Below, piece by piece: positions 1,272-56,484 of a stretch of DNA of 64,000 nt (its first letter is position 1; each line of letters begins with the position of its first letter). The stretch covers positions 1-64,000 of the IMG/VR virus record IMGVR_UViG_3300047471_000729. One strand, 5' to 3'. The DNA is from a virus. Both the position numbers and the translations under genes were made by a program. The notes beneath the pieces are model-generated. The model did no database searches, was not told the origin of the DNA, and saw only the letters and a list, made by a program, of their open reading frames with translations.

Positions 1272-1522
1272 TGGCGTGGGTCCGCTCTGGCGAATGCTGT
1301 AAATGTGGTGATTGTTGCCGGGGTGGTATCGGTAACCTTCCAGCACAACCAGATGGTGCCTGCCCGTTCCTAGAACGTGAAGAGGACGGACAGCGTCTTT
1401 GCGCCATACACGATTCTCAAAACACTTATTGGTCGCGCGGTTGCAATGTGTGGCCAGATCATCCCCATCAAATTAGGAATTACGATCGCTGCACGTTCAG
1501 TTTTGTGTGGCAGGATGACTGA
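1271..1522 (+). CDS. Small CxxCxxCC-type cysteine-cluster protein
   Basis: An 83-residue protein starting at the ATG at 1271, which overlaps the upstream stop; a GTG at 1268 is also possible. Six cysteines sit in a pattern like the YkgJ/UPF0153 cysteine-cluster family: C-C-x-C-x-x-C-C near the N-terminus, then single Cys in the AC-P-F-L and L-C-A-I-H segments and two more later. Such clusters bind Zn or an Fe-S centre in the family, but biochemical function is not established. It overlaps both neighbours by a few bases, so it is translated with the beta-helix and repeat proteins. A metal-binding protein inside a structural operon is odd; it could be a virion or assembly factor. Family assignment is moderate; function unknown. 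Confidence 0.6.
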   Translation: MAWVRSGECCKCGDCCRGGIGNLPAQPDGACPFLEREEDGQRLCAIHDSQNTYWSRGCNVWPDHPHQIRNYDRCTFSFVWQDD

Positions 1523-4500
1523 TGGCCGTCCAAACTATCTATCTGCTGGGCACAGCGGGAGTTACACCGAACTTCTGGGGCAACACCCAACTTAACGGTT
1601 CTGCTCCAACTGCGGCCAATTCTGCCTTCGGCTGGGGACCAGCCAAGACCGCTGTCACTACGCCTTATTATCGTGGACGCTTAGGAGCAACCACTACCGG
1701 CTCTGATGCCGCTGTCTCAACCAGCTACAACGCGGGTCGAGCGACACCACAACCCGGCACTGGTACTGGTGCGGCGACGGCGGGCGACAGCTTTGTTGTT
1801 GGTCCACTAACTGGTACTTTTGCCGCTACCGCGTGGACCTTTAACTTCAATCTGCGCGCCGGGACAGCGGGGGCGATCGGCCATGTCAACATGCGGATGT
1901 GGCGTGGTACCCTTGCTAACGGTTCTAATGCTACACAGGTCGTCGCTAACACTGTGGGTGCGACAGTCACCCTATCAACCAGCGCCGATGTTAATAGCTC
2001 GATCACCGCCTCGCCGGGGCAGTTGGTACTCAACAATGAGTACCTGTTCTTTCAGGTAGAGTGGCAGGAAACCACTGCCGGATCGAGTAACAGCGACAAT
2101 GTCTTCTTCCGTATCGGTACGGCTTCGATCACCACCGCTGATTATGTTGCCGCCGCGACCGGCACGGTTGCTGTTACTGAGATTTCCGACACGATCGTCT
2201 CGACCGGTAGAACTCCCTATGTTGGCACGCTTGCTGTTACTGAGATTTCCGACACGATCGTCGCGGCAGGCGGTCCAAGGATAGCCGGAACGCTCGCTGT
2301 TACCGAGATTTCCGACACGCTCGTCGCAACGGCGGAAGGTCCAGCGGCTCCGATAGCGGTCGCCCCGTGGCCCCCAGCCTTCCCGCAACACGGCGCAGGG
2401 CAAAGTTTAGGTGTAACAAACTTTGCCGCACCGGGTGCGGTGCAGCCCTCGATCAGTGGGTTGGTCGCCGGTCCTTGGCCCCCCGCCTTCCCGCAGCACA
2501 GGGCGGGGCAGACAACCGGTGTTACCAACTATACGCATCCCGGTGCGGTGCAACCGGTTTACCAGATCGCTGATACTGGTATTGTTAATGGTAATCTTTC
2601 CCGGGCTGAAATACCGGATATACTGACAGCAACTGGCACTGTTCTAAGTGGTGTTGGTGGTAATCTCTCCCAGATTGAAGCGCTCGATACGATAACTGCT
2701 GCTGGCAATGTTCCAGTAATTGGTAATCTCTCTATTGTTCAGGCGTCACAGACCATCTCCTCTACTGGTACTGTGACCATACGTGGTACATTAAGTCAGC
2801 TACAGGCACCAAATACTTTATCAGCAGTTGCTAGGGCAACCGTTACTGGTACACTTAATCTTCCACAAGCAAATAATACAATATCAGCAACTGGTACTCC
2901 TATTGTTGCTGGTACACTTAATCAGAATCAAGCTAATAATACAATTATAAGTACTGGTACTGTTGTAGTTCGTGGTGTACTCAATCAACTTCAAGCAAAT
3001 CAAATAATCTCCTCAACTGGTGCTGTACTTTCGCCAGTCATTGGTACTCTAAGTGTTAATGAAGCGGCGGATTCGGTTTCTGCCACGGGCACGGTTGCTA
3101 ATCCGCTCGATGTTGTTTTGCTTTGTCACTTTGACACGGGATTTATTGACTTTTCGAACTACGCGCACAAGCTAACCCCGATTGGCAATGTCATCCTCTC
3201 AGGAGCCAATCCGAAATTTGGTTCTGGTTCTGCGAACTACGTCATCGGGAACGGTGCCAATTCAATCGACACCGGCAATTCGTCTGATTTTTACTTTGGT
3301 GCCGCGCCGTTTACGATCGAGGCTTGGTGCTATGCGACCCAATCGGGGACCGGTGACGGCTATGATCCGATCCTGGCCCAGTGGGACGCGGTCCTCGGTA
3401 ATGTCGGCTTTTTCTTTAATGTCTTTCCGCAGATCATGTTTTTCTGGAGTCCTGACGGCAACGCTTATTCCTACATCTCATCCACCGGGCCATTGTCGCC
3501 GTTAAACGCTTGGCACCATGTCGCGGCTGACCGAGACGCCACGGGCTTTTTACGTCTTTACCTAGACGGTGCTGTAGTTGCTTCTGGTCCGTGTCTAGAC
3601 AGTTTCTATCATTCGTCACTAACCACTCGGATCGGGAATGACAATAGTGCTGGTCGCGCGTTCCCCGGGTATATAGATGAAATAAGAGTGGTGCGGGGCA
3701 CCGCTGTCTATGGTGGTGCTTTTACACCACCGACAGCACCGTTCCCCAATCCATTACCTAGCGGTTTTAGCGGTTCGCTTAATGTTACCCAAGCTAATCA
3801 GATAATTACAAGTACTGGTACTATTGTAGTTAGTGGTGCTCTTAATCAACCACAAGCAAACAATACAATAGCGTCCACTGGTACTGTCACTATTCTTGGG
3901 ACGCTAAGTCAGTCACAAGCACCTAATACTTTATCGGCAGTGGTTAGAGCCACTGTTTCTGGTACGCTTAATGTTCTTCAAGCACCAAATACTTTATCAG
4001 CGATCGCTAGAACCAATGTTACTGGCACTCTTGGTCAGTTACAACCACCAAATACTTTAGTAGCAACTGGCTCGGTTCTTTCTGGTATTGGTGGTGCTCT
4101 TAATGTTCTTCAAGCGTCACAGACATTAACAGCGGCCGGTAATTCACCCTATGTTATCAAAGGTGATCTTAGTCAGCTACAGGCACCAAATACTTTATCA
4201 GCAGTTGCTAGAGTAACCGTTACAGGTACTCTTGGTCAGTTACAACCACCAAATGCACTTGTTGCGACGGGCAGTTTGGTTGTTAGTGGTACTCTTAGTC
4301 GGCTTCAAGCTACACAAACAATTACTACCACTGGTACAATCACTGTTGGTGGTGTTCTTAATCGAGTACAAGTATCTAATACAATAGTTTCTACTGGTGT
4401 GGTTGTTGTTACTGGTACATTAAATCAACTACAGTTATCAAATACTTTATCAGCTACTGGATCAGCTCTTTCTGGTATTGGTGGTGCTCTTGATGTTCTT

Positions 4501-5064
4501 CAAGCATCACAAACAATATCAGCAACCGGTAGTGTGCCTTATGTTGCTACACTTAATCAGGTTCAGGCGTCTAATACTATAGTTGCTACTGCTAGTCTTG
4601 TAGTTGTTGGTACACTTAATCGAACACAAGCAAATAATACAGTAGTATCAGAAGCTTCAGCTATTGCTGGTGGTGTACTCAATCTAGTTCAAGACAATCA
4701 GTCATTTATTGGTACGGGTAGAATTGTTGTTGAAGGTACTTTACGAGTTGCTCAAAATGATAACATAGTAAGTGCAACTTGCTTTGTTGATAAGATTACA
4801 GCAGATCTTGAAGTAGTAGAGACAAACGATACAATTACAGGATTTGCTTCTATTGGTGCTGCTTGGTTCCCTGCTGTTCCTGGTGTAATTCCAGGTACAC
4901 CACCTGATCGGATATTAGTTGGTGATAACCCTGATAGGCTGGTTGTTGCTGGTGAAAATGGTAGTCGTACAAGTACAGGCACTGCTCCTAACAGAACGAA
5001 CGTTGCCGGTGGTAATGGTAACAGGACAATATCTGTCCCATCCCGTCGTAGGATTGCCGCATGA
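1522..5064 (+). CDS. Giant repeat protein with central LamG/ConA-like domain (putative adhesin)
   Basis: 1180 residues. Residues 1-210 form a non-repetitive beta-rich head. From about 215 come three copies of a 20-21 residue repeat of the form [13 protein letters not shown]-x-x-G, then two 32-residue copies rich in W-P-P-A-F-P-Q-H, then eight repeats of the form G-T-L-x-x-x-Q-A-x-N-T-I-S-A-T-G. Residues about 528-740 are a LamG/concanavalin A-like lectin domain (sequence W-H-H-V-A, then Y-I-D-E-I-R-V). About 17 more repeats follow, about 28 in all, then a short G/N/R-rich tail. The 3' part is A+T-richer than the 5' part. LamG domains usually bind glycans, so a fibre or adhesin role is inferred. 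Start ATG overlaps the previous stop; the end overlaps the DUF2213 gene by four bases. Confidence 0.8.
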
Positions 5065-5702
5065 TCGCAATGGTTGGAGCATTTAACCCACTCAAGTCGC
5101 AATCCAGTCCTATTGCGATGGATCAAAACCCATCTGTGCGCAGGGTTAGTGAAGACGGTCATATGCACGTTGAAAATAGCAACATATCAAAAGCGACTGT
5201 TAATCCATACTGGGGTGAAGAGATTCCGGACTATGAAAGATTAGGATTAGACCCTGCTAGAAAGTATTGGTTGTTAAGGCATCCCAAGGAATTGGCAAAG
5301 GGTGCTAGAACCTTTAACAACTTACCTATACTCGCGAAACATCAGCCTATTAGTTCAGATAAGCATCCAGCTGATTTAGTGGTTGGTTCTACTGGTACCA
5401 ATGCTGTTTATAGACATCCTTATCTGCAGAATAGTTTGGTTTTTTGGACAAAACCCGCCATAGATTCAATTGAAGATGGTGAACAGAGAGAGTTATCTTG
5501 TGCGTATCATTACGACCCTTTAATGACCCCAGGTATGTATGAGGGTCAGCACTATGATGGGATTATGACTAATATACGAGGCAACCATGTCGCGCTCGTC
5601 GAGGATGGCCGTGCGGGCTCGGATGTAGTTGTAGCTGATGCTGCTTTTGATGAGAATTTAGGTCATTGGTGGACTATTGTTCATGCTGTGGTTCGGATTT
5701 AG
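5061..5702 (+). CDS. DUF2213 phage protein, N-terminal (protease-like) half
   Basis: 213 residues matching the N-terminal domain of DUF2213 proteins, which sit next to capsid genes and are often annotated as prohead-protease-like. Family hallmarks seen: R-V-S-E-D-G-H-M-x-V, I-S-K-A-x-V-x-P-Y, R-H-P-K-E-L, L-x-K-H-Q-P, R-E-L-S-C-A-Y, and the [10 protein letters not shown]-x-G-R-A-G-S-D block near residue 180. Family members usually run on into a long acidic C-terminal region. Here the reading frame instead ends within the 3' end of an antisense homing endonuclease gene (5658-6290), so the last ~15 residues are foreign. The C-terminal half resumes as a separate ORF at 6340. Product likely acts in procapsid maturation; whether the split form is functional is inference. 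Confidence 0.85.
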
Positions 5703-6290
5703 TTTACATTTATCGAAATGCCATCGCTTCAAAACCATTAGATTACTTTCCAATCCACAGTGTGGGCAATGAACTCTTATGTGAGCACCTGACTTTTGTA
5801 GAGATGCAGCTTTTCGACCACCAACAAGTCCTGCCTTTCGACCAATCTCTGAGCTTTGTTCTTTAGTTAGATTTATGCGACTTCTTAATCCAGCTTCATG
5901 ACCTTGTTTAGACTTTTGCTCAAATGTTTTCGACTCTGCTGAGGCTTTACCTGCTTTTCGACCGATTTCTGAACTTCTCTCTGGTGTTAATGCTTTAGCT
6001 CGAGCTAGCCCACCATTTCTACTATTACCTTTCCGGCCCATTAGGCTTCTTAGTTGTCTTCGTTTCTCTGGATCCATTGTTACAATAGGTATTTTGGAAT
6101 AGTGAACCGTGTCAACTTTGTAACCTTTCTTAATCTGCCACCACTTCTCACGATCACCAGCTTCTTTAGGTGTATTGCATACTTCAATAACTACAAGATT
6201 AGTTCCTTTTGGGTACCACTTTGCCTTTTCCTCTATAGTAAGCTGTGTACAACCAACCTTTTTCCCGGGTATTTCATAGATTATGTACAT
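5658..6290 (-). CDS. GIY-YIG-like homing endonuclease with NUMOD3 motifs and C-terminal zinc finger
   Basis: 210 residues on the strand opposite to the interrupted host gene. The N-terminus [15 protein letters not shown] is a degenerate GIY-YIG start, and D-R-E-K-W-W-Q-x-x-x-G-Y-K-V-D matches the family's Glu-containing helix. Residues about 75-165 carry NUMOD3-like R-K-A-G / S-E-I-G-R-K-A-G repeats, and the C-terminus has C-P-H-C-G ... R-W-H-F-D-K-C, a zinc-binding tail frequent in phage homing endonucleases. The ATG at 6290 has an AAGGA Shine-Dalgarno. It separates two halves of DUF2213 and is a free-standing selfish gene by context. A small group I intron around it cannot be excluded but no intron core was recognised. 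Confidence 0.8.
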
Positions 6291-6339
6291 TAAATCGTCC
6301 TTGGCAAGTTGCTTCGTCTAATATAGCAGGAATAGTTAA

Positions 6340-7578
6340 ATGAGCAAGCAACTTCTAAAAGCATTACGAAAAAAGTACCGAACGCCACAAGATGCGGTGC
6401 GGGCGCTCGGCTTAGACGCCGCTCTTCTAGACGATAAGGAGGTATCTATGCCTGATCCTAAGCCCGTACCAAAGCCTGATACAAAACTAGCGCCGGCAGC
6501 TATGGTTGCCAAAGGTGCTCTGCTTACCTATCTCACACCTCGCCTCGCTCAAGATGCTGCACCCCTTGACTATAACTCCATTGTGCGTGGAGTTACGTCA
6601 AAGAACTTTAACAGCAGAAAGACCGACATCATCAAGACGGTCAAGTATGCGACCAAAGGCAAGTTGGCCAAGGATGCTGATATCCAGGATCTAGCCAACC
6701 TTTTGGACGCATTGTCACCTTCTGCGGGTCAGGCAGATGTTGAGGGTGGGATGATGCCTCAGGGTGGTGGTGGACCGCCTCCCATGCAGACGGAGCCCAA
6801 TGCTGGGCCGCCCATGGGTGCATCACCAGAGGAAGATGGTGAACCCGAAGATGTTGTTGCAAAGATTAAGGCATACCTTGAGCAAGAAGGGGTATCGCCT
6901 GAGATCTTGCAGAACCTTGACGCATTTCTCGCTGAGCAAGGCAATCCTGATCCTGACCTCAGTGGAGGTGGCGGCGCTCCTCCTCCCGACAATGGTGGTG
7001 GTGGCGGTGGTGGCGGCGGCGAGGAACAGCAGAGTAAAGACCCCAATGGAAACGGAGGAGATCAAGGTATGGCCAGCAACATTCCGCCCCCGACCGCAAT
7101 CGGCGGTATGGACGAAAACGAGCTTGAGGATTGCGTGAGCGACGAAGAGGAAGAGACCGAAGAGGAGCGCAAAAAGCGCGAAGAGGCAATGGATGAAGTT
7201 GTCCCCTCTGAGCAATCCGAGCCGGTGACAAAGACGGCAATGGACGCGGCAATCAAGCGCGCTGTTGCTCGTACTGTCCAGACCCAGAAGAACATTCGCG
7301 CAGCTGAGCGCTTTGTTCGTCCTTGGGTTGGTGACCTGGCTATGGATGCTGCTCGGCCGTCCGATGTTTACCGTACTGCCTTAAAGGCACTCGGTATGGA
7401 CTCGGCAAAGGTCGACAAGATGCATCCGGATGCCTTGTTGCCTGTGCTTGAAGCGCAGCCTCGGCCTAGTGTTCGTCGTCCCAATCAGGGCGGCCCGCGC
7501 ATGGCGGCGGATGCCAAGATTGAAGGCGGTTCGTTCGCTGAGCGGTTCGACTTCACCAAGAACATCACTATTCAGTAA
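6340..7578 (+). CDS. DUF2213 phage protein, C-terminal (scaffold-like) half
   Basis: 412 residues starting M-S-K-Q-L-L-K-A-L-R-K-K-Y, a sequence normally found in the middle of full-length DUF2213 proteins. It continues with A-M-V-A-K-G-A-L-L-T-Y-L-T-P-R-L-A-Q-D and a G-V-T-S-K-N-F segment, then long Pro/Gly (about 150-235) and acidic E-E-E-E-T-E-E-E-R low-complexity stretches, and a conserved C-terminal block with R-F-V-R-P-W-V-G and F-D-F-T-K-N-I. Extended acidic, flexible composition suits an internal scaffold. An in-frame TAA directly precedes the ATG, so this half has its own initiation site (GCAGGAA upstream). The frame differs from the N-terminal half, hence two polypeptides unless RNA splicing restores one. 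Confidence 0.75.
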   Translation: MSKQLLKALRKKYRTPQDAVRALGLDAALLDDKEVSMPDPKPVPKPDTKLAPAAMVAKGALLTYLTPRLAQDAAPLDYNSIVRGVTSKNFNSRKTDIIKTVKYATKGKLAKDADIQDLANLLDALSPSAGQADVEGGMMPQGGGGPPPMQTEPNAGPPMGASPEEDGEPEDVVAKIKAYLEQEGVSPEILQNLDAFLAEQGNPDPDLSGGGGAPPPDNGGGGGGGGGEEQQSKDPNGNGGDQGMASNIPPPTAIGGMDENELEDCVSDEEEETEEERKKREEAMDEVVPSEQSEPVTKTAMDAAIKRAVARTVQTQKNIRAAERFVRPWVGDLAMDAARPSDVYRTALKALGMDSAKVDKMHPDALLPVLEAQPRPSVRRPNQGGPRMAADAKIEGGSFAERFDFTKNITIQ

Positions 7579-7616
7579 ATCCTGAGGTGATTTGCTGATA
7601 ACTAATGGAGGTTTCA

Positions 7617-8588
7617 ATGCCTTTGTTTCAAGCTCAGGTTTATCCGCAACAGGCACCTGGTGTAGAGGGTGACTTTTGCGATCACAATCCGCGGGCCACT
7701 GTGGATGCTGGCCCCGGTGGGCTGGTTGCTGCATCTGAGGGCGTGACTGTTGCTCGGTTTGGTTGGCTTGATGCCAGCATTATCGACCCGAACAATGCTC
7801 CGACCTTGGTTCACACCCGCGCTATTGGTGGTGTTATTGCACCGGCAGGGTTTGTTCATCGTGAACAGCAGGGCCTGATCACCAGTTACCTTGGTGGTGT
7901 CAGTATGCTGGTCCCCGGTGGCTTCCCCATTACTCTCCATCAGGCTGGTGGGTTCTTTGTTCTCAATCGGGGTACTACCTATGCCCAGTATGGGATGAAG
8001 GCCTTTGCTCGTCTGAGCGATGGTGCTGTGGTATTTGGTGCAACAGGTACTGCCCCGGGTGCAGCGACCGTGACTAGTTCGGTCGCAGCATCAACCTTTA
8101 GTGCCACCGGCTCAATTGCTGGTAATGTCTTGACTGTTAGTGCAGTTGGGGCTGGTTCTGTGGTACCTGGTTCCACAATCTCTGGTACCAATGTTGTAAC
8201 GGGTACCAGGATTCTCGGTCAGTTGAGTGGTGCTACACCTGGTGGTGTTGGTACTTATGCAGTCAGCATTGCCGAGCAGACTGTTGCCTCCACAGCAATT
8301 GCTGGTACCTATGGTACGATGACTGTCACCGTCGCCGGTGCAACTCCAATCGAGGTTGGTGATGCGCTGTCGGGTGGTACTGTTGTTGCTGGTACTTCCA
8401 TCACGGCAATGGGCCCAAACTACGGTCTGACTGGTACGGGTGGCCTTGGTACCTATGCTGTGGACAATAACACAGTGGTTGCCTCTGCTTCTCTTGGCGC
8501 CACTGACGCAATTGAGACCAAGTGGTTTGCGACCAGCGCAGGTGCGGCAGGCGAAATCATCAAGATGTCCAGCTGGCCGCTTGGCTAA
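7617..8588 (+). CDS. Structural cement protein Gp24-like (capsid decoration)
   Basis: 323 residues. The N-terminal ~120 residues (M-P-L-F-Q-A-Q-V-Y, then G-D-F-C-D-H-N-P-R, G-P-G-G-L-V-A, V-A-R-F-G-W) resemble phage structural cement/decoration proteins, and the gene sits directly before the major capsid gene as in related phages. Residues about 140-300 are a Gly/Thr/Val/Ala-rich insertion of strand-turn repeats, including a G-T-Y-A-V repeat pair, likely exposed on the capsid surface. Start: the ATG at 7617 is chosen over 7605 because GGAGG lies at 7607-7611, five bases upstream. The product probably stabilises the expanded capsid lattice. Placement and N-terminus make the call fairly firm; the insertion has no assigned function. 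Confidence 0.75.
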   Translation: MPLFQAQVYPQQAPGVEGDFCDHNPRATVDAGPGGLVAASEGVTVARFGWLDASIIDPNNAPTLVHTRAIGGVIAPAGFVHREQQGLITSYLGGVSMLVPGGFPITLHQAGGFFVLNRGTTYAQYGMKAFARLSDGAVVFGATGTAPGAATVTSSVAASTFSATGSIAGNVLTVSAVGAGSVVPGSTISGTNVVTGTRILGQLSGATPGGVGTYAVSIAEQTVASTAIAGTYGTMTVTVAGATPIEVGDALSGGTVVAGTSITAMGPNYGLTGTGGLGTYAVDNNTVVASASLGATDAIETKWFATSAGAAGEIIKMSSWPLG

Positions 8589-8671: not shown

Positions 8672-9841
8672 ATGCAAAATTTTAGTGGTGCGCGGGCTGC
8701 CTGGTCGGCTGATCGTGCGGAATGGGAAAATCGTGGTGTATATCTTCCCGCGATTACGGCATACACGCCGGAGTCTTGGAAGAACAACCCACAACTGGCC
8801 CAGGACGAGATGCTCCAGATGGCCCAGGATGCTTGGGGCTATGGTGGATACGGCCATAATAGTATGGCGATGGATGCACCGCCTCCACTATATACTGACC
8901 CGAACTCGGCAATCCCCGCCCTGCTTACTACGACTATTGACCCCGAGGTCTTTCGTATCTTGTTCAGCCCGAACAAGGCAGCGGAAGCGCTTGGTGGTGA
9001 AGTCAAGCGTGGTGATTGGCTGCAAGACATCATCTACTTCCCGGTCGTCGAGGCGACTGGTGAAGTGTCTAGCTATGGCGACTACAATGAGAACGGCAAC
9101 GCCGGGATCAATGTTGGGTGGCCGGCTAGGCAAAACTATCTCTTCCAGGTCATCAAAGAGTATGGTGAGCGGGAAGTAGAGCGTGGTGGTCTTGCTCGGG
9201 TCAATTGGGTGGCTGAGATCGATCGTGCAGCGGCCCAGACTATTGCCAAGTTCATGAACCTTACCTACCTGTTTGGTGTTGGTGGGCTCCAGAACTATGG
9301 CATGACTAATGATCCCAATCTGACTGCAGCCCTTAGCCCTGCTCCAAAGGCAGCGGCAGGCAACAGCCCGAGATGGATCATCAATGGTGTCATGAATGCA
9401 ACGGCAAACGAGGTCTATGCTGATATTGAGACCTTGTTCTACCAACTGGTCTTGCAGACCGGTGGGTTGATCGACACGGATACTTCGATGACCTTGTGCA
9501 TGTCACCTGGCGCCCAAGTCGCCCTGACGATCACCAACAGCTTCGGTGTCAACGTTCGTGACCTGATTGACAAGAACTTTGGCAATATCAAGCTGATCAC
9601 GATCCCGCAATATGCAGCTCGTGGGCCAATCATGCCGCAAGGTGTGGCGGCTGGCGAGTTCGTGCAGCTGTTTGCCAATGAAGTTGAAGGTCAGAAGTTT
9701 GCGTTTCCGGCTTACTCAGAGAAGATGCGCGCGCACCCTGTTATTCGCGCACGTTCGTCCTTCTCTCAGAAGGTCAGTGCAGGTACTTGGGGCACAGTGG
9801 TGCGGATGCCGGCAGCTGTTGTCAGCATGATTGGTGTCTAG
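8672..9841 (+). CDS. Major capsid protein (DUF2184-like)
   Basis: 389 residues, strong Shine-Dalgarno GGAGGAACAA before the ATG. Context (after DUF2213 and cement genes, before connector genes) and sequence fit the DUF2184/major-capsid-like family: A-I-P-A-L-L-T-T-T-I-D-P near residue 80, the T-G-E-V-S-S-Y-G-D-Y segment, the long E-Y-G-E-R-E-V-E-R ... I-D-R-A-A-A-Q helix region, Y-L-F-G-V followed by Y-G-M-T-N, and a C-terminal P-V-I-R-A-R-S-S-F-S-Q-K-V. An HK97-type fold is expected from the family. The gene is bracketed by long hairpins on both sides (8591-8655 and 9845-9870), consistent with very high expression. No sign of frameshift or truncation. Confidence 0.88.
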   Translation: MQNFSGARAAWSADRAEWENRGVYLPAITAYTPESWKNNPQLAQDEMLQMAQDAWGYGGYGHNSMAMDAPPPLYTDPNSAIPALLTTTIDPEVFRILFSPNKAAEALGGEVKRGDWLQDIIYFPVVEATGEVSSYGDYNENGNAGINVGWPARQNYLFQVIKEYGEREVERGGLARVNWVAEIDRAAAQTIAKFMNLTYLFGVGGLQNYGMTNDPNLTAALSPAPKAAAGNSPRWIINGVMNATANEVYADIETLFYQLVLQTGGLIDTDTSMTLCMSPGAQVALTITNSFGVNVRDLIDKNFGNIKLITIPQYAARGPIMPQGVAAGEFVQLFANEVEGQKFAFPAYSEKMRAHPVIRARSSFSQKVSAGTWGTVVRMPAAVVSMIGV

Positions 9842-16819: not shown

Positions 16820-18322
16820 ATGCAAGGCTTGAGCGTATCGCGCGTAGTCGACGTGGAGGTCAGCTTTGCGCCGATCGCCGCGCCTCTAGCCCGTTTCGAT
16901 ACTCTGTTGATTATGGGCGATAGTACCGTAGTCGACACGGGTGAAGCAATGCGGGAGTACAATACCATTGAAGAAGTCGCTGGTGACTTTGGTACTACCG
17001 CACCGGAGTTCCTGGCAGCAGAACTGTTCTTTAGTCAAGTACCAAAGCCTACCACACTATTCATTGGTCGGTGGGCAAGGACACCGACTTCAGGGCGCCT
17101 GACAGGTGGGCCTATGCCTTCCGAGGATCAGGTGATCAGCAACTGGACCTCAATCATCAATGGTGGGTTCCAGATCTCTGTTGATGGTGGTCCTGTTGTA
17201 TCAATTGTCAATATGGACTTTTCACTGCAGACCAACCTCAATGGTATTGCTACGATAATCAATGCCGCCTTTGCTGCACTTACACCAACACCTGTTCATG
17301 CACTCTGCACCTGGACTGGACATCAATTTATCATCCAGAGTACTACTACCGGTCCTACCTCATCGGTTAGCTTTCTGCTGCCACCGCCGGGGGCGCCTGC
17401 TACGGCTACAGACATCTCGGATAATATGCTGTGCACCGCTGCACTAGCCCAGCGTAGTTCGCCCGGTGTCGCACTAGAGACACCAGTAGACAGCGTGGTG
17501 CGGGTGGATGGTCGTGGGTGGTACTCGCTGATCTTTGCAGCTAGTGCACCATTGACTGATGCTCAGCACTTGGCGGTTTGTGGTTATATTGAAGCCGCAT
17601 CCGATAAGCATCTGTACGGCATCACCACAGCAGAGGCGACCTGCATTGATCCGGTCAATACTACTGATATTGGCAGCCAGTGCTCCCTGGCGGATTACAT
17701 GCGGACTGCCGTTCAGTATTGCGCCACCAATAGTTATGCTATGGCCAGCTTCTTTGGTCGCGCGCTAACTGTTAACTTCGAAGGTAGCAACACTACCATC
17801 ACAATGAAGTTTAAGGTGCAGCCAGGAATCATCCCAGAGCTGCTATCAGCGACTTCAGCTAGTACTCTTGCCAGCAAGCGTATCAACGTCTATGCTCAAT
17901 ACAATAATGGCACAAGCATTATTGAAGAGGGCGTGATGAGTGGTCGCGCTTACTTTGATGAGATGCACGGTCTGGATTGGTTGGCAAACCGCATTCAGAC
18001 TGACGTGTACAATGTCCTGTATCAGTCACCCAAGATCCCACAGACTGATCCAGGCATTCATGTGCTGGTTGCAACTACTGATGGTGCACTGTCACAGGGT
18101 GTCACCAATGGTCTTATCGCACCGGGTAGATGGAATGCACCTGGCTTTGGTCAGTTGGGGCAAGGTGACCTGCTTTCCAGTGGTTGGTATACCTTTGCCG
18201 CCTCAGTTGACACGCAAGACCAGGCACAGCGTGAAGCGCGCATTGCACCACTGATCCAGGTCGCGGTAAAGTTGGCTGGTGCTGTCCACTTCTCGAACGT
18301 GCTCATAAATGTTAACCGTTAA
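16820..18322 (+). CDS. Tail sheath protein (DUF3383)
   Basis: 500 residues, strong Shine-Dalgarno (GAGGAG). It matches DUF3383, the sheath family of many contractile-tailed phages: N-terminal V-S-R-V-V-D-V-E-V, F-D-T-L-L-I-M-G-D-S, Y-N-T-I-E-E-V-A-G-D-F-G, F-F-S-Q-V-P-K-P and F-I-G-R-W, then a variable middle, and the C-terminal G-L-D-W-L-A-N-R-I-Q-T-D-V-Y-N-V-L-Y and G-Y/W-Y-T-F-A-A motifs. The sheath contracts to drive the tube into the cell. The gene after it is a homing endonuclease inserted between sheath and tube, which are otherwise adjacent in such phages. Sequence looks intact. Confidence 0.9.
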   Translation: MQGLSVSRVVDVEVSFAPIAAPLARFDTLLIMGDSTVVDTGEAMREYNTIEEVAGDFGTTAPEFLAAELFFSQVPKPTTLFIGRWARTPTSGRLTGGPMPSEDQVISNWTSIINGGFQISVDGGPVVSIVNMDFSLQTNLNGIATIINAAFAALTPTPVHALCTWTGHQFIIQSTTTGPTSSVSFLLPPPGAPATATDISDNMLCTAALAQRSSPGVALETPVDSVVRVDGRGWYSLIFAASAPLTDAQHLAVCGYIEAASDKHLYGITTAEATCIDPVNTTDIGSQCSLADYMRTAVQYCATNSYAMASFFGRALTVNFEGSNTTITMKFKVQPGIIPELLSATSASTLASKRINVYAQYNNGTSIIEEGVMSGRAYFDEMHGLDWLANRIQTDVYNVLYQSPKIPQTDPGIHVLVATTDGALSQGVTNGLIAPGRWNAPGFGQLGQGDLLSSGWYTFAASVDTQDQAQREARIAPLIQVAVKLAGAVHFSNVLINVNR

Positions 18323-18385: not shown

Positions 18386-19033
18386 ATGGATTACTACGTC
18401 TATGTACTGATTCGATCTGACAATGGAAAGCCTTTCTACGTTGGATGTGCCATACAACTAGGTCGGATCAGTACACATCTTTCAGGTAGGGATACAGCAA
18501 CAGGTACGATTGTTCGGTCTCTTCGTGATCTAGGATATGAAACCATTCCAATAATAGTGAGGGATGATATAGAATATAAAGAAGCTCGTTTGATTGAGAC
18601 TTGTTTAATAGATGCGCTTAATGGGTTGATTGTAAACAAACGTAGATATGTTGGTGGGTTTTGTGAAGAAACTAGACGTCGAATGTCCCTTGCCAAACTC
18701 GGGAAGCCTAGTGCAAGAAAAGGTAAAAGATATGGACCTACTGAGCGAGGTAAGATTGCTCAAGGACAATTAGGTTGGATAACAAATGGTGTTGAAGATA
18801 AAAGAGTCAATAAGAACAACCCTATTCCTGATGGTTGGTATCGAGGCCGAAGTTTAATAGTTACTCAACAAGAATTAGATAAACGAATTGAACAGAAACA
18901 AGAGAATCGAAAGATTTGGCTTTATCGAAATCGAAATCGATCTTGGATCACGAACGGTTTAAAGAGTAAAAGGCTTCTTGATACTGACCCTATTCCTGAT
19001 GGTTGGTATCTTGGACGAAAAGTCAACCGGTAA
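18386..19033 (+). CDS. GIY-YIG homing endonuclease with T4 Seg-type C-terminal repeats
   Basis: 215 residues. N-terminal GIY-YIG domain: Y-Y-V-Y-V-L-I at residue 3 and F-Y-V-G-C at about 17, with Glu in E-A-R-L-I-E-T. Then NUMOD3-like K-L-G-K-P-S-A-R-K-G. The C-terminus has two copies of a DNA-binding repeat W-I-T-N-G-x-x-x-K-R ... I-P-D-G-W-Y-x-G-R, as in T4 Seg/Mob proteins. It is A+T-richer than the sheath and tube genes on each side and interrupts their usual adjacency, so it is a mobile gene. Translation is probably damped by the hairpin at 18342-18380. Target is probably the sheath-tube junction of related phages (inference). Confidence 0.88.
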   Translation: MDYYVYVLIRSDNGKPFYVGCAIQLGRISTHLSGRDTATGTIVRSLRDLGYETIPIIVRDDIEYKEARLIETCLIDALNGLIVNKRRYVGGFCEETRRRMSLAKLGKPSARKGKRYGPTERGKIAQGQLGWITNGVEDKRVNKNNPIPDGWYRGRSLIVTQQELDKRIEQKQENRKIWLYRNRNRSWITNGLKSKRLLDTDPIPDGWYLGRKVNR

Positions 19034-42955: not shown

Positions 42956-43759
42956 TTAGGCTACTGCACCACCACCAAAGTTGCCTTTGCGGCGACGATA
43001 CCAACCGACCAGACCAAATCCGAGAATTGCTGAACCAAAGATGGTCAGCGAACCCGGCTCCGGGACTGCTGCTGCTGGCGCGGCTTCGACAAAGAACGAG
43101 TCTGGACCATCGTTCAACCCTGACATTCTCGCGAGGAACAACACCGTGTCGCCCACATGAATGTCGTTGTTGGTCAGGCTGAAACCAGAGATCGTGTAAT
43201 CGGGAAAGCCCGTGCCATTGTTGACATCCGGCACGTTACCAGTAGTACCGCCCGTGAAGCTGTCGAGTACAGTGTGTGTCGTCAGGTTCAGGAACCAGAA
43301 GCTATTCAGCGTCTCAGCGACGTTGGTTGAGTTGATATCGACGCCAATGCTGAACCTCAGATTGTTGGCAGCATCACCATTGGCAAGCAAGAATGCCAGG
43401 AGAGGACTACCTGAACCAACTTGATAACCAGTGGCGAACGTGTCATCGGCGAGCGTGTTGCGCCCACCGTTGCCTTGGTCCGAGAACGCTGAGATTGCGC
43501 TTAGATTACCTGCGTTGCTGTAATCGTTATATCCGAAATTCGCAGGCTGCTGTGGCTGGTTTTCCCCGCAGATCACGCATGGCGCGTTCTGCGGTTGATT
43601 ACCGCCAGGAACGAAATTACCAAGCGATAGGCTGCCTGAGTTAGTGGTGTTCCATTGCACCCCACCCAAGGTGACAAACGTGTCAGCCTTAGCCGGTGTC
43701 ATTGAAAGCAGAGCGCCGCAAGCGACACCTGCCATCAAAAGTTTCATTACAGTTTTCAA
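42956..43759 (-). CDS. Secreted PEP-CTERM surface protein B
   Basis: 267 residues starting at TTG 43759 (AAAGG eight bases upstream; ATG 43747 has no ribosome site). N-terminal signal peptide (K-L-L-M-A-G-V-A-C-G-A-L-L, cleavage after A-K-A). The mature part is Asn/Gly/Ser-rich with a C-V-I-C-G pair and beta-rich composition. C-terminal PEP-CTERM signal: V-P-E-P-G-S-L-T-I-F-G, a membrane helix, then W-Y-R-R-R-K. In Gram-negative bacteria this signal is recognised by exosortase, which cuts at the PEP site and hands the protein to the surface or matrix. No exosortase is in the window, so host machinery would be needed. Second gene of a two-gene operon, closed by a terminator at 42898-42937. Confidence 0.88.
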   Translation of the reverse strand: MKTVMKLLMAGVACGALLSMTPAKADTFVTLGGVQWNTTNSGSLSLGNFVPGGNQPQNAPCVICGENQPQQPANFGYNDYSNAGNLSAISAFSDQGNGGRNTLADDTFATGYQVGSGSPLLAFLLANGDAANNLRFSIGVDINSTNVAETLNSFWFLNLTTHTVLDSFTGGTTGNVPDVNNGTGFPDYTISGFSLTNNDIHVGDTVLFLARMSGLNDGPDSFFVEAAPAAAVPEPGSLTIFGSAILGFGLVGWYRRRKGNFGGGAVA

Positions 43760-43812
43760 CGTACTAACCTTTCTATAGTAATTGGTGGGGCCCCAAGACC
43801 CCACCAAACGTG

Positions 43813-44562
43813 CTAGGCAGAGGCGAGATTGCCCTTGCCGTTCTTCCGGCGACGCAGCTTACCCACGACACCCATACCAATAAGCGAGGTGCCAAAGATA
43901 ATCAGCGAAGCAGGTTCGGGCACCGCTTGCGTAGTGACGATTGATTGGGTACGCCCAACCAACGACGCACCAGCGATCAGCGTACCGGTGGTCCCTTCCG
44001 ACAGGGAGTAGGGACCGGTGCTGTCGAACACACCTGAAAAGTTCTGCGAGAACGAGTCAGGATCGACCACGGCAGCGTGCGTCAGGGTTGCAAGCAAAGT
44101 CCCCGGCAGATCAGTCGGGGTGTCCGCGCCTTGCGTGTTCGCCGCATCACCAAAGAACGTCTCAGTGACGCTGGAGCCGATACCGGATTGGAACGTCCCG
44201 GCGCCACTAGCGGTGAACGCCGTGACCGGACCCAAGAAGCTGGTCCCACTCACGGCAAGCTGAATCGAAACCGTACCCGTGTTATTGTTGATCACCTGAA
44301 ACGAGGAGGTGTTCAACGAGTTTGACGGTCCGATTACCTGAGTCTGTGCTGATCCGAGGAACTGCACACCGGCGATCGTCTGATTGGCAATTTGCAACTG
44401 ACCAACTGCGTTGTTGGTGTCGCAAGCTGCCTGATCTGCGCAGACGAATGAAGTACCGTTGATGTCTGCGGCGATCTGTAGTGTCGCGTTAGCCGAACCT
44501 GCCAACGCCAACCCACCCGCAAGGATGGTGCTGGCTAAGGCTAGGTTTTTGAGCTTACTCAT
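43813..44562 (-). CDS. Secreted PEP-CTERM surface protein A
   Basis: 249 residues with GAGGT before ATG 44562. Signal peptide: K-L-K-N-L-A-L-A-S-T-I-L-A-G-G, ending A-N-A. The mature region is a Ser/Thr/Gly-rich beta protein with one Cys pair near its start (F-V-C-A-D-Q-A-A-C). C-terminus: V-P-E-P-A-S-L-I-I-F-G, hydrophobic helix, K-L-R-R-R-K, a complete PEP-CTERM signal. It is the first gene of the pair; protein B starts 53 bases downstream of its stop. Architecture is bacterial rather than phage-like, so a moron acquired from a host genome is likely. Expected location: periplasm, then cell surface or exopolysaccharide after exosortase processing (family knowledge). Confidence 0.9.
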   Translation of the reverse strand: MSKLKNLALASTILAGGLALAGSANATLQIAADINGTSFVCADQAACDTNNAVGQLQIANQTIAGVQFLGSAQTQVIGPSNSLNTSSFQVINNNTGTVSIQLAVSGTSFLGPVTAFTASGAGTFQSGIGSSVTETFFGDAANTQGADTPTDLPGTLLATLTHAAVVDPDSFSQNFSGVFDSTGPYSLSEGTTGTLIAGASLVGRTQSIVTTQAVPEPASLIIFGTSLIGMGVVGKLRRRKNGKGNLASA

Positions 44563-44673: not shown

Positions 44674-44883
44674 TTAGGCGACACTTTCATTGTCGGATTT
44701 TACACTTTTTAGTGGGTTCTTTGGGCAATTATCAAAGTGCCATCGAGTTAGTACTCCTCGATTGTTCTTATGCCCACAGTGAGGGCATTCACCCATGCCC
44801 TTTGATGTAAAGAACCTCTCGTTAAAACTAATCGATCGTTCAGGTCGTTTATGTAGTGATCTAATCTCAGACGATTTTGTCAT
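44674..44883 (-). CDS. Orphan zinc finger protein resembling homing endonuclease tails
   Basis: 69 residues starting at ATG 44883 inside the stop of the upstream gene. The C-terminal half reads E-C-P-H-C-G-H-K-N-N-R-G, then R-W-H-F-D-N-C, nearly the same as the zinc-binding C-terminus of the endonuclease at 5658-6290. No catalytic domain is present. It may be a remnant of a homing endonuclease or a domesticated DNA-binding protein. Coupling with the gene at 44880 suggests that it is expressed. Confidence 0.6.
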   Translation of the reverse strand: MTKSSEIRSLHKRPERSISFNERFFTSKGMGECPHCGHKNNRGVLTRWHFDNCPKNPLKSVKSDNESVA

Positions 44884-46720: not shown

Positions 46721-47221
46721 TTAGGTGGCCATCAGTTCACGAGCAGCAGGACCGTCCTTCCGCCGCCTGCGCCGGCGCTTCAGAAAGGACGTCTGATCCT
46801 TCTCGTTCCAGGACCGAATGAGTGCCATGTCCAGATAGTCCAGATCGAGACCAAAGTCCTCATAGCCCTGTGCGATCACGTCCAGATAGTGCTGCCCAGG
46901 AGGCTGAACACCACCGTGGCACATCTGATACACCAGGACATCGGCAACCTTACCGGTCTTGACCATCTTGACCTTGATGTAGATCTTCTCATAGAGACCT
47001 CCACCAACGCCCTCATACATGTCAAGCTCTTTTTCACACTCCCTGGTGATCTTCCAAAGACCACCGGGGCAGCTTTCCTTGCGGTCGTACTCGATATCGG
47101 CTACACCGCGAAACACCAGGCGTGAGTGGGTGAGATGAAACGAGCCCAGCTTCTTGGCCTTGGGGCATCTGCGCTTCATCGCCTCGACACAGAGATTGCT
47201 TCCATAGGCGAAATACAACAT
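46721..47221 (-). CDS. GGCT/AIG2-like gamma-glutamylcyclotransferase
   Basis: 166 residues from ATG 47221 (AAGGAG upstream; the frame to 47425 runs over the promoter). The start M-L-Y-F-A-Y-G-S-N-L carries the Y-G-S-N substrate-binding loop of the GGCT-like fold; D-M-Y-E-G-V at about residue 70 holds the catalytic Glu, and Y-I-K-V-K, V-L-V-Y-Q-M complete the barrel. The family releases 5-oxoproline from gamma-glutamyl amines or peptides. The last ~15 residues include a run of Arg (K-R-R-R-R-R-R-K). Phage copies are known near amidoligases, and one is present here at 48628-49842. Own promoter at 47250-47277. Substrate unknown. Confidence 0.82.
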   Translation of the reverse strand: MLYFAYGSNLCVEAMKRRCPKAKKLGSFHLTHSRLVFRGVADIEYDRKESCPGGLWKITRECEKELDMYEGVGGGLYEKIYIKVKMVKTGKVADVLVYQMCHGGVQPPGQHYLDVIAQGYEDFGLDLDYLDMALIRSWNEKDQTSFLKRRRRRRKDGPAARELMAT

Positions 47222-47249
47222 GTCGGAATCTCCTTGCTGACTCCCTATA

Positions 47250-47277
47250 TATATAAGCGCTTTGCGATGAATTGCAA
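47250..47277 (-). promoter_or_regulatory. Promoter with operator for GGCT-like gene
   Basis: On the - strand TTGCAA (47277-47272), 16-bp spacer, TATATA (47255-47250). Contains TTGCAATTCATCGCAA. The ATG lies about 29 bases after the -10. Confidence 0.75.
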
Positions 47278-47286
47278 GCCCCCGCA

Positions 47287-47568
47287 TCAAAAGATTTCGT
47301 CCTTGAGTCTGGGGTTGAGGCGATCCACACCGGGACCCTTGTGCTTGATCCACGGACCCGGCGGGTCGCCCTGACCGTCCCAAACTAACGTAGCAAGGAA
47401 CGCCTCGTGGCGGAGTTCGTAGCAATATCGACTGCTATAACCGGTCTCATCCAGACCTGTGAACAGACCAGTGGTAAAGTTCATATTCATCAGGCCGATC
47501 CACCTGCCGTCCTTGAGCTGTCGAACGTTTGTGTAGCCCTCTGATAGGAGCAGCTCTTCGGTGGTCAT
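47287..47568 (-). CDS. Hypothetical small protein
   Basis: 93 residues from ATG 47568 (AGGA upstream), overlapping the stop of the membrane protein gene. M-T-T-E-E-L-L-L-S-E-G-Y-T-N-V-R-Q-L-K-D-G-R-W-I-G-L is split in a helix and beta hairpin; then F-T-T-G-L-F-T-G-L-D-E-T-G-Y. The pattern of G-x-R-W-I-G/A-L followed by an F-T-T-G/A-L motif is common in small phage proteins of unknown role. Last gene of the amidoligase operon. Confidence 0.6.
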   Translation of the reverse strand: MTTEELLLSEGYTNVRQLKDGRWIGLMNMNFTTGLFTGLDETGYSSRYCYELRHEAFLATLVWDGQGDPPGPWIKHKGPGVDRLNPRLKDEIF

Positions 47569-53947: not shown

Positions 53948-55216
53948 TTATGTTACTCTTAAGTTATACTTAAGAAATCTTTTGACCAAAGTTGTTGACT
54001 TTATTCTACGTCGAGTTAATGCAGAAAGCATCATCATAGTTACTCCAACTATCACTATTGAAACTTTGTCGTTCATATCTCCCACAATGAAAATTGGTTG
54101 TAGAATTAATGTCATCAAAACTCCAGTACAAAATGTAACAAGAGAATTCTGACCTAAAAGAATGACTGGCTTGGAAACAGTCCATCTTAAGAATTCACTC
54201 TCTCGACTGACAAAGCTATTAATAACAATCACCACTGCTAGAAAATTAGCTAGTCGGACTGGTGCTAGAAATTCTTTACTTTGAAATAGTCTCCATGGCA
54301 AACCACCAGGAAAGATGAGTTCATTTACCGATGGTATGCTAAAAATTGCGCATCCTATAACAATAGTCCAAGCTCCAATAGTTATCCAATTCCATTTATT
54401 AACTATATAAATTTCTCTGTTCTTAATCGGAATAAACTCTGGAATTAGAATTCTTCTTCTATGAGTTTGAAGATGTCGAATTGATGCACCTATGACAAAT
54501 AGGAATTGCCATGACAAAGGATTTACCCAATGAGCACTGTTAAAATATGGAATATCCCACAATATAATTAAAGTCGAAAAGTAAATTGAAAAGGAAACTA
54601 GTAACGTTACCAACACATTCTTCCTAAGAGCATATAGAATAATCGGAAGAATTGCTAGGAGCATCATATATACTGGCAAAACTCCTAGAAATGGTACCTT
54701 AAACTTAAAAGAAACTAGCGCATCGATAGCTTGCTGAAAGACAGTATCAATTGAGATATAAGGAGATGACTCACCAGAAATTACTACATACAAAAAGTAG
54801 AATAAGAAAATCAGAAAGTTGGCTATGTATAGCTTACCAACTCGTTTGTAAATTTTAGTAGCTGTTGGTCGTATTCCATAGTTATTCAACATACTTCCAT
54901 AGACCAAATAAGAAATGTATCCTGAGATACAAATGAAAACCTCCGATGCATCGAAGAAAGTGAAATAGCGAAGGAGTAGCGGTGATCCATGAACATGATC
55001 ATAAAAGATCAAAATGAGAGCGATTCCTCGAAAGAAATCTACTCTGGGATCACGAGAGCTAAGGTAGTCAGCCGGCATCATTACACCGGTGGTACCGCGC
55101 CGATTCTCTTCAATCGGCAAAGTGTCGATATGACTTCCCTTCTGAAAATCAGCGCGTGGTTTTGGGAGACGGGACAATCTATGCTCCCAACGATACATCA
55201 TTTCGGCGTAATCCAT
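53948..55216 (-). CDS. OpgC-like membrane acyltransferase
   Basis: 422 residues from ATG 55216 (AAGGA seven bases upstream; the frame start at 55243 would overlap the previous gene). After ~60 cytosolic residues, the OpgC signature: P-R-V-D-F-F-R-G-I-A-L-I-L-I-F-Y-D-H-V-H-G, F-F-D-A-S-E-V-F-I-C-I-S-G-Y-I-S-Y-L-V-Y-G (as blocks), then 10 or more membrane helices in all, ending with a basic tail. OpgC enzymes add succinyl groups to osmoregulated periplasmic glucans in Gram-negative bacteria; relatives acylate surface sugars. The gene is visibly A+T-richer than its neighbours, a sign of transfer. At the end of a leftward regulatory operon. Likely host-envelope modification; acceptor sugar unknown. 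Confidence 0.85.
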   Translation of the reverse strand: MDYAEMMYRWEHRLSRLPKPRADFQKGSHIDTLPIEENRRGTTGVMMPADYLSSRDPRVDFFRGIALILIFYDHVHGSPLLLRYFTFFDASEVFICISGYISYLVYGSMLNNYGIRPTATKIYKRVGKLYIANFLIFLFYFLYVVISGESSPYISIDTVFQQAIDALVSFKFKVPFLGVLPVYMMLLAILPIILYALRKNVLVTLLVSFSIYFSTLIILWDIPYFNSAHWVNPLSWQFLFVIGASIRHLQTHRRRILIPEFIPIKNREIYIVNKWNWITIGAWTIVIGCAIFSIPSVNELIFPGGLPWRLFQSKEFLAPVRLANFLAVVIVINSFVSRESEFLRWTVSKPVILLGQNSLVTFCTGVLMTLILQPIFIVGDMNDKVSIVIVGVTMMMLSALTRRRIKSTTLVKRFLKYNLRVT

Positions 55217-55227
55217 AACAGTTCCTT

Positions 55228-56484
55228 TCATCTCATAAACCAACGACTAATCACTTGCTTCACTCCTTTCATTGGGGAACCCCACCTTTGCCTTACTTCT
55301 TTGGCTTGTTTTTGTACTGTTATCTTTAATGGTGGATTGTGTCTTTTATGTAGTTCTTCAATTACAGCAGTGATGTCTCCTAACTTTCCATCAAAACCTA
55401 CCTCAAGAACAGCTAGTGACGCAATCGAATAGGCTTCAAGCAGACGTGGTACCCATTGTGTTCTCCGCTTTAGATCCATTGGAAGGATCTTTTTCCCCAC
55501 ATTATTTTCAAGATTCACCCAGTTTATTGCCCGGATTTTCAGCGTTTCCATAGTTAGAAGAGCATCATTCGGATAACCAAGTATTTTAATTTCATGTATC
55601 TTATTCCAAAACATCTGTTTATATTCATTAATCAAGCCCATTTCAAAGGTATAGCGCATGGCTCGGTGAAGTTTTTGATTACCTCGCTGTCCATGTTCCA
55701 AGTGGGTTAGTATGTGAAACCATGCGTCCTCAAACGGATCTCTACTGGGCTTCAGTCTAGGACGACGATACTTGGTGATGGATGAAGGTGTAACTTCCAC
55801 CACTTCCTTAACTTTGGGTAACGGTGCGGGTGGAGGCAACACAGGAGGAGTTAATAACTTAGGTGGTGCTTCCGGGTATACCTTGGGTGCACGTTTGCGC
55901 CTGGCCGCACCCGCGCGAGGTAGAGTAGATTTCTCAGGTGGAGCCTGAATTATCTCTGGTGGGATTGGTGGTACCTGCGCAGCATATGTCGCCGCTTCTG
56001 CTTCCCGACATCCGTTAATAAGTGCTGCAACCTTATCCAAATTAACCCCATTACCATTGGATTGCGGATTAGTTACAGAGACTTCGTTATTACAGGTAGG
56101 ACATGTATAAGCAGGTTTTTGATTGGAAGATGGCCAATGGGATAGATAACGTTTATTCCCACAATCTACACAAGCAGTCGTATCAGGCTTAAGCCGAATA
56201 AAATCAGAACGTTGCAGACGGGGAATATTTCCCCGACTGTTTTTTCCCTGATCATCTTGACGCTCAATGAGTGGGCGGACATATGATATAAATAACCGCC
56301 ATCGGGCAGTATGCAAACCTACATCAATCGGTGAATCTCCTCTGCCATTAATCCGGGAGGATCGGCGGAGGGCTAGATGGGGTGGAATTGATTCTTCCAC
56401 CCCAGCAAAGAGCCCTCCTAACCGAACCCAAGACTCTGGGTTCGCCGCTAGATTAGCGACGGTTTGTTGTCGCCAGGTTAGCAT
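55228..56484 (-). CDS. Hypothetical protein with zinc ribbon
   Basis: 418 residues. Zinc ribbon at about 102-130: C-V-D-C-G-N-K-R-Y-L, then C-P-T-C-N-N-E. N-terminal ~90 residues helical and basic. A Pro-rich linker spans about 165-225 (P-P-K-L-L-T-P-P, V-L-P-P-P-A-P-L-P), followed by a conserved C-terminal domain with W-F-H-I-L-T-H-L-E-H-G-Q-R-G-N and E-H-L-K type helices. The domain is not recognised. Its ATG overlaps the previous gene's stop and it ends 12 bases before the acyltransferase start. DNA or RNA binding by the ribbon is likely. Part of the operon from 57497. Confidence 0.65.
   Translation of the reverse strand: MLTWRQQTVANLAANPESWVRLGGLFAGVEESIPPHLALRRSSRINGRGDSPIDVGLHTARWRLFISYVRPLIERQDDQGKNSRGNIPRLQRSDFIRLKPDTTACVDCGNKRYLSHWPSSNQKPAYTCPTCNNEVSVTNPQSNGNGVNLDKVAALINGCREAEAATYAAQVPPIPPEIIQAPPEKSTLPRAGAARRKRAPKVYPEAPPKLLTPPVLPPPAPLPKVKEVVEVTPSSITKYRRPRLKPSRDPFEDAWFHILTHLEHGQRGNQKLHRAMRYTFEMGLINEYKQMFWNKIHEIKILGYPNDALLTMETLKIRAINWVNLENNVGKKILPMDLKRRTQWVPRLLEAYSIASLAVLEVGFDGKLGDITAVIEELHKRHNPPLKITVQKQAKEVRQRWGSPMKGVKQVISRWFMR

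Follow-up and report, generated by a model that had tools for sequence, protein, structure and literature searches.

In phage lambda C/Nu3, the protease lies N-terminal to the scaffold, and the scaffold is also produced from an internal start. In herpesviruses, the UL26/UL26.5 unit is organized such that the scaffold gene begins inside the protease–scaffold gene (PMC12474303), and the herpes proteases use Ser-His-His (PMC4498786). A review of T4 mobile elements describes genes split by free-standing endonucleases, including nrdA of phage Aeh1, which mobE divides into two working chains, and Aeromonas phage gene 43 (43A/43B), which may already have been split when its seg-like endonuclease arrived (PMC2988022). 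In T4, according to the same source, capsid genes 23 and 24 flank segD, a GIY-YIG endonuclease gene in antisense orientation.

The locus analysed here lies in a 64,000-nt stretch of viral DNA (the window) and appears to be a new variant on the known theme of endonuclease-associated split phage genes. As in 43A/43B and the mobE-split nrdA, an essential gene is present in two apparently working pieces with a free-standing endonuclease between them; unlike in those cases, the pieces encode a capsid protease and a scaffold, the endonuclease is antisense, and the split recurs in many lineages together with a conserved protease tail and scaffold head. The locus shares with T4 segD an antisense free-standing endonuclease among head genes, whereas segD is not positioned between protease and scaffold and is associated with no split gene. 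The putative scaffolding protein gp24 of Pa193 (PDB 9b40; PMC11042391) is related in sequence to the DUF2213 protein (E 2.5e-18); it differs in having 478 residues, of which only 286–326 were built, and the main text of that paper does not use the word 'protease'. Neither a DUF2213 split nor a nested DUF2213 scaffold turned up in the open-access literature searched, whose incomplete coverage leaves novelty unproven.

ORF calling places three open reading frames at the locus, in agreement with the initial annotation in position, strand and frame: a DUF2213 capsid maturation protease gene on the plus strand (5061–5702, 213 aa), a free-standing homing-endonuclease-like ORF on the minus strand (5658–6290, 210 aa), and a scaffold gene on the plus strand (6340–7578, 412 aa in its long form) in a frame different from that of the protease. 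The protease and endonuclease ORFs overlap by 45 nt at two convergent 3' ends. Minor capsid (XM1 gp53-like, 7605–8588) and major head protein (8672–9841) genes follow directly downstream, a location that fits DUF2213 membership, and the 93-kb record contains no second DUF2213 copy. A promoter scan of 5500–6600 gave nothing beyond chance level. Upstream of the locus, the plus-strand gene at 1522–5064 encodes a 1180-aa protein with many GTL.QLQA.NTLSATG-type repeats and a laminin-G-like domain.

Analysis of the first ORF confirms its assignment to DUF2213, with the domain spanning 5142–5639 (residues 28–193; PF09979, E 1.8e-45, 155.4 bits against a curated cut-off of 22) and a match to the head maturation protease family phrog_2229 (E 1.3e-85). 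The AF2 model (pLDDT 88.9) has the EBV, HSV-2, KSHV and PRV proteases as its top Foldseek matches in the PDB (probability about 1), which would suggest a herpes-assemblin-like protease, although the match scores are modest (best E 2.4e-3, TM about 0.4). Residues H94, S146 and H176 are invariant, in H-S-H order, across an alignment of 53 sequences made up of the window and viral-contig rows only, and they form a candidate Ser-His-His triad of a herpes assemblin-like serine protease. The segment after the domain (5640–5702) carries the W..I..A motif of the other split loci and a predicted helix at residues 200–212 (sequence comparison, AF2 model); it strays somewhat from the consensus, reading WWTIVHAV against W..IE.AI. 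A truncation of the protein is not confirmed: its last 20 residues fit this tail, and 5061–5702 is apparently a complete protease gene.

The scaffold gene matches the C-terminal part of phrog_2229, the PHROG that the protease also matches, including its C-terminal end. A Shine-Dalgarno-like AGGA (6328–6331, duplex −4.3) precedes the ATG at 6340 by 8 nt, and the first residues (6340–6429) form a head, MSKQLLKALRKKYRTPQDAVRALGLDAALL, that is kept in all split loci with the motif ALR.KF.TP..AL.ALGLDE.LL. Immediately after the head, an AAGGAGG Shine-Dalgarno (6436–6442; duplex −13.5, the strongest of the set) precedes an internal ATG at 6448, from which a short form of 376 aa (6448–7578) is predicted as the counterpart of the internal start in fused genes. 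In split scaffold genes, this second start is generally retained downstream of the head, with a duplex of −5 kcal/mol or lower in 95%. The head was found neither in named phages (tblastn) nor in the PDB or Pfam. An inverted repeat, AAGTTGCTT/AAGCAACTT, at 6306–6354 spans the scaffold start and could fold over the ribosome site; its folding is no better than that of shuffles (z −1.08).

Between the two genes, the minus-strand ORF carries a C-terminal zinc-finger-like motif (5706–5768) with 61–67% identity over 23–33 residues to several phage endonucleases. The motif stops at 5706, short of the protease stop codon. This DNA-binding finger is of a type common to many phage GIY-YIG and HNH endonucleases. 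The ORF as a whole matches phrog_314 weakly (E 0.0075), and its N-terminus has no Pfam or PHROG match, the GIY-YIG motif there being read by eye alone; from the finger and the phrog_314 match, 5658–6290 is a homing-endonuclease-like ORF and a putative GIY-YIG enzyme. Additional guests occupy the same gap in other split loci. Antisense GIY-YIG-like endonucleases are present in the window, L187, L191, L193 and L282, of which L191 alone passes the Pfam cut-off and the others are weak matches or motif readings; sense HNH endonucleases are found in L192 and L198, and XRE-type HTH genes, small and related to one another, in L187, L188, L189, L200, L203 and L225, several of them assigned by resemblance. 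Other split loci have a short non-coding gap or an overlap. By sequence, the protease/scaffold junction is a hot spot for guests. Within the gap of L103, a stretch at about 3860–3990 resembles an antisense tRNA remnant by eye, and ARAGORN finds no tRNA there. Elsewhere in the window, a second GIY-YIG-like endonuclease ORF (18386–19033, plus strand; Pfam GIY-YIG E 0.009, below cut-off) directly follows the gene at 16820–18322, tail-sheath-like by position, and a 74-aa open frame contains a short match to the endonuclease finger (44698–44790, minus strand; 55% over 31 aa).

The split at the protease/scaffold junction was found in 27 contigs including that of the window, hence in at least 26 others, and most of these lack an endonuclease. 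Endonuclease-free splits comprise L121/L196, L185 (ATGA overlap), L190 (+9 nt), L127 (+19 nt) and L272 (overlap), together with L186, L197, L202, L226, L235 and others; in five split contigs the ORFs overlap or are separated by less than 25 nt. A protease-alignment scan of viral contigs returned 80 loci, nearly all fused, with L121 and L127 split and endonuclease-free; both carry tail and head, and no fused gene has either segment (88 rows checked, some contigs twice). Scans with the scaffold head yielded L103 and then 20 loci, in all 20 of which the protease is a separate upstream ORF at a distance ranging from −4 nt to about 2 kb. It was the head that first led to most of the split loci, a bias from which only the two protease-domain scans are free. 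The last scan, free of it because it was made with the protease domain alone, gave 15 split and 63 fused loci, with tail and head present in 15/15 and 0/63, respectively; seven of these heads were missed by the regular expression and are visible in the listed ORFs. Over the two protease-domain scans, the tail (W..I..A, predicted helix) and the head thus accompany 17/17 split loci. Because both segments occur in all 17 and in no fused gene checked, the protease and scaffold look like complete genes and the endonuclease like a guest. No prophage relatives were confirmed in genome contigs. In Klebsiella phage KP12 (L098), DUF2213 reads as a pair of overlapping ORFs, with the break within the domain itself and not at the junction, probably through a frameshift or sequencing error.

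The closest relatives of the window are fused. L002/L003 (protease 90% identical) and L004 (72%) have a single ORF. Rightward of 6484 the window matches L088 at 99.9% identity and L002 at 96%; the 57 nt of L088 upstream of that point are an L002-type fused junction. Leftward of 6484, patches of the window align to L002 at 81–96% (mostly 81–92%) or not at all. Since L088 is near-identical only rightward and has a fused junction upstream, the window is mosaic, with a breakpoint at 6484. Beyond what L002 possesses, the window has the tail and the scaffold head with its linker, besides the endonuclease. From this mosaic structure and from the fused state of L002 and L088, its nearest kin, we infer that tail, endonuclease and head were acquired by the window lineage as a block.

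Mapped onto a tree built from 94 protease domains, the split state requires 10 changes, at least 7 of them forced by supported branches, and a single split clade is rejected (AU test, p 7e-79). Part of the sampled group was selected through the head, bootstrap values had not converged, and the tree contains some long branches; several well-supported mixed pairs, among them the window and L002, nevertheless make the split polyphyletic on the protease tree. This polyphyly could partly reflect exchange of the protease domain. It points to one of two histories: transfer of a cassette from lineage to lineage, or repeated fusion and splitting.

Fused genes already contain a predicted scaffold start just after the protease domain. 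An in-frame Shine-Dalgarno and ATG lie a median of 4 codons past the protease domain, and an internal start just after the domain is present in 57/63 clusters of fused genes (about 90%; clusters below 70% identity) against 11% of equal-length control windows from the same genes (p 2.9e-42). On sequence grounds, this argues strongly for scaffold production from a nested start in DUF2213 genes. The arrangement resembles herpesvirus UL26/UL26.5 and lambda C/Nu3 in that the protease is N-terminal to the scaffold and the scaffold would also be made alone from an internal start; the best matches of the protease model, at modest scores, are herpes proteases. It differs in that the internal start is deduced from Shine-Dalgarno signals, and in that protease and scaffold are separate genes in the window phage. 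Because fused genes already have this predicted internal scaffold start, the junction would tolerate a break.

The locus is best read as a two-gene protease–scaffold module, to which we assign a probability of about 0.78. In this module, 5061–5702 would encode a complete assemblin-like maturation protease ending in a short helical tail, and 6340–7578 a scaffold with two starts, the first giving a form with the conserved head of about 30 residues and the second, strong start at 6448 giving a scaffold without it. The antisense ORF would be a free-standing homing-endonuclease-like guest that did not create the break by interrupting the window gene; instead, a ready-made tail–endonuclease–head block would have replaced a few codons between the protease domain and the internal scaffold start. 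The proposal of the initial annotation that the protein works as two polypeptides is supported by two apparently complete ORFs and by a recurrent split bearing tail and head.

How the two products would cooperate is a separate step. Tentatively, the tail could bind the head, and a fraction of the scaffold chains, those with a head, would then bring the protease into the prohead in place of the covalent link of fused genes. Against this docking step alone stands the reading that protease and scaffold are two free proteins, with tail and head serving roles other than mutual binding, e.g., in capsid contact, stability or translation start, a reading that falls somewhat short of an even chance. 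An AF2 prediction of the L190 tail–head stretch, with the stop codon read as Trp, gave a pLDDT of 68.6 and a pTM of 0.36, and the Mantel correlation between tail and head distances, at first positive, was not robust in rank tests (p 0.05–0.18, with or without sister pairs); neither result speaks for docking. Coevolution of tail and head was therefore dropped as support, and docking stays hypothetical and rather less likely than not. The strict co-occurrence of tail and head with the split, and their absence from fused genes, speak against free proteins. A more speculative and rather doubtful extension holds that a tail–guest–head cassette invades fused protease/scaffold junctions, possibly driven by the endonuclease that is often part of it, with the halves rejoined non-covalently by docking; guests (antisense GIY-YIG-like, sense HNH, XRE-type HTH, or none) would then come and go, leaving permanent splits.

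The two-gene module must also be weighed against the opposite direction of change, in which the window would be ancestral and the fused L002 and L088 would have arisen from a split ancestor by deletion of the block from tail to head. Split and fused states interconvert many times on the tree and the internal SD–ATG is present in both, as this would allow; most diversity is fused, however, many split tips nest within fused clades, and the window is visibly mosaic at 6484, which together make a deletion unlikely.

De novo insertion of the endonuclease into an intact DUF2213 gene, the origin that the initial annotation had proposed, is considerably less probable still. The mobE-split nrdA of Aeh1 provides a precedent, L002 and L004 are single ORFs, and L088 has the same fused-type junction; yet at least 26 further contigs, most of them endonuclease-free, are split in this way and have homologous tails and heads. 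In L002 and L088 the head and linker are missing along with the endonuclease, so that the difference exceeds an endonuclease insert. The two-ORF state is not confined to endonuclease alleles, many endonuclease-free relatives being split and the close relatives fused, and two separate ORFs in relatives without the endonuclease are what the earlier proposal itself had named as evidence of an older split. Of that proposal the anatomy stands, an antisense endonuclease lying between the halves, and the breakage is not supported; an endonuclease-bearing block may nonetheless have delivered the split, since the nearest kin have fused genes.

An intron that restores one frame was also suggested earlier; as a self-splicing element carrying an antisense ORF, it is scarcely credible. 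Antisense endonucleases do exist inside introns in other systems, and an in-frame junction can be written near 5658/6340. Against this, the locus has no Rfam match at the gathering threshold and none meaningful at a permissive one, its minimum free energy is not below that of shuffles (z +1.24), and neither Rfam nor folding against shuffles reveals a group I or group II intron core. Moreover, the protease has its own stop and the scaffold its own start with a Shine-Dalgarno, and relatives with gaps of −26, −4, +9 and +19 nt leave no room for an intron. A decayed or misassembled gene, suggested by nothing beyond the odd look of the locus, can be set aside, because a second contig (L001) carries the same allele at 99.98% identity over 10.5 kb, and motifs, starts and stops are conserved.

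With the two-gene module, one odd locus becomes a recurrent architecture in which protease and scaffold are fused or split in close relatives and the split is tied to two conserved peptides. It offers a testable idea of how an essential morphogenesis module can house a mobile gene with no need of an intron or intein. A nested DUF2213 scaffold start, as in herpesviruses, would be relevant to a common origin of capsid assembly in phages and herpesviruses, and it would aid the annotation of hundreds of phages.

Additional features were observed elsewhere in the window, all on the minus strand. Two adjacent genes (43813–44562 and 42956–43807) encode proteins with PEP-CTERM-like sorting signals, which are odd for a phage, ending in VPEPASL.. 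and VPEPGSL.., followed by a hydrophobic stretch and RRRK; the protein at 43813–44562 matches Pfam PEP-CTERM at E 0.003, below cut-off, and a similar ending is seen by eye in L103 (326–1012). A phage-encoded OpgC-family membrane acyltransferase (E 3e-62) is located at 53948–55243, and a gamma-glutamyl cyclotransferase/AIG2-like protein is encoded at 46721–47425.
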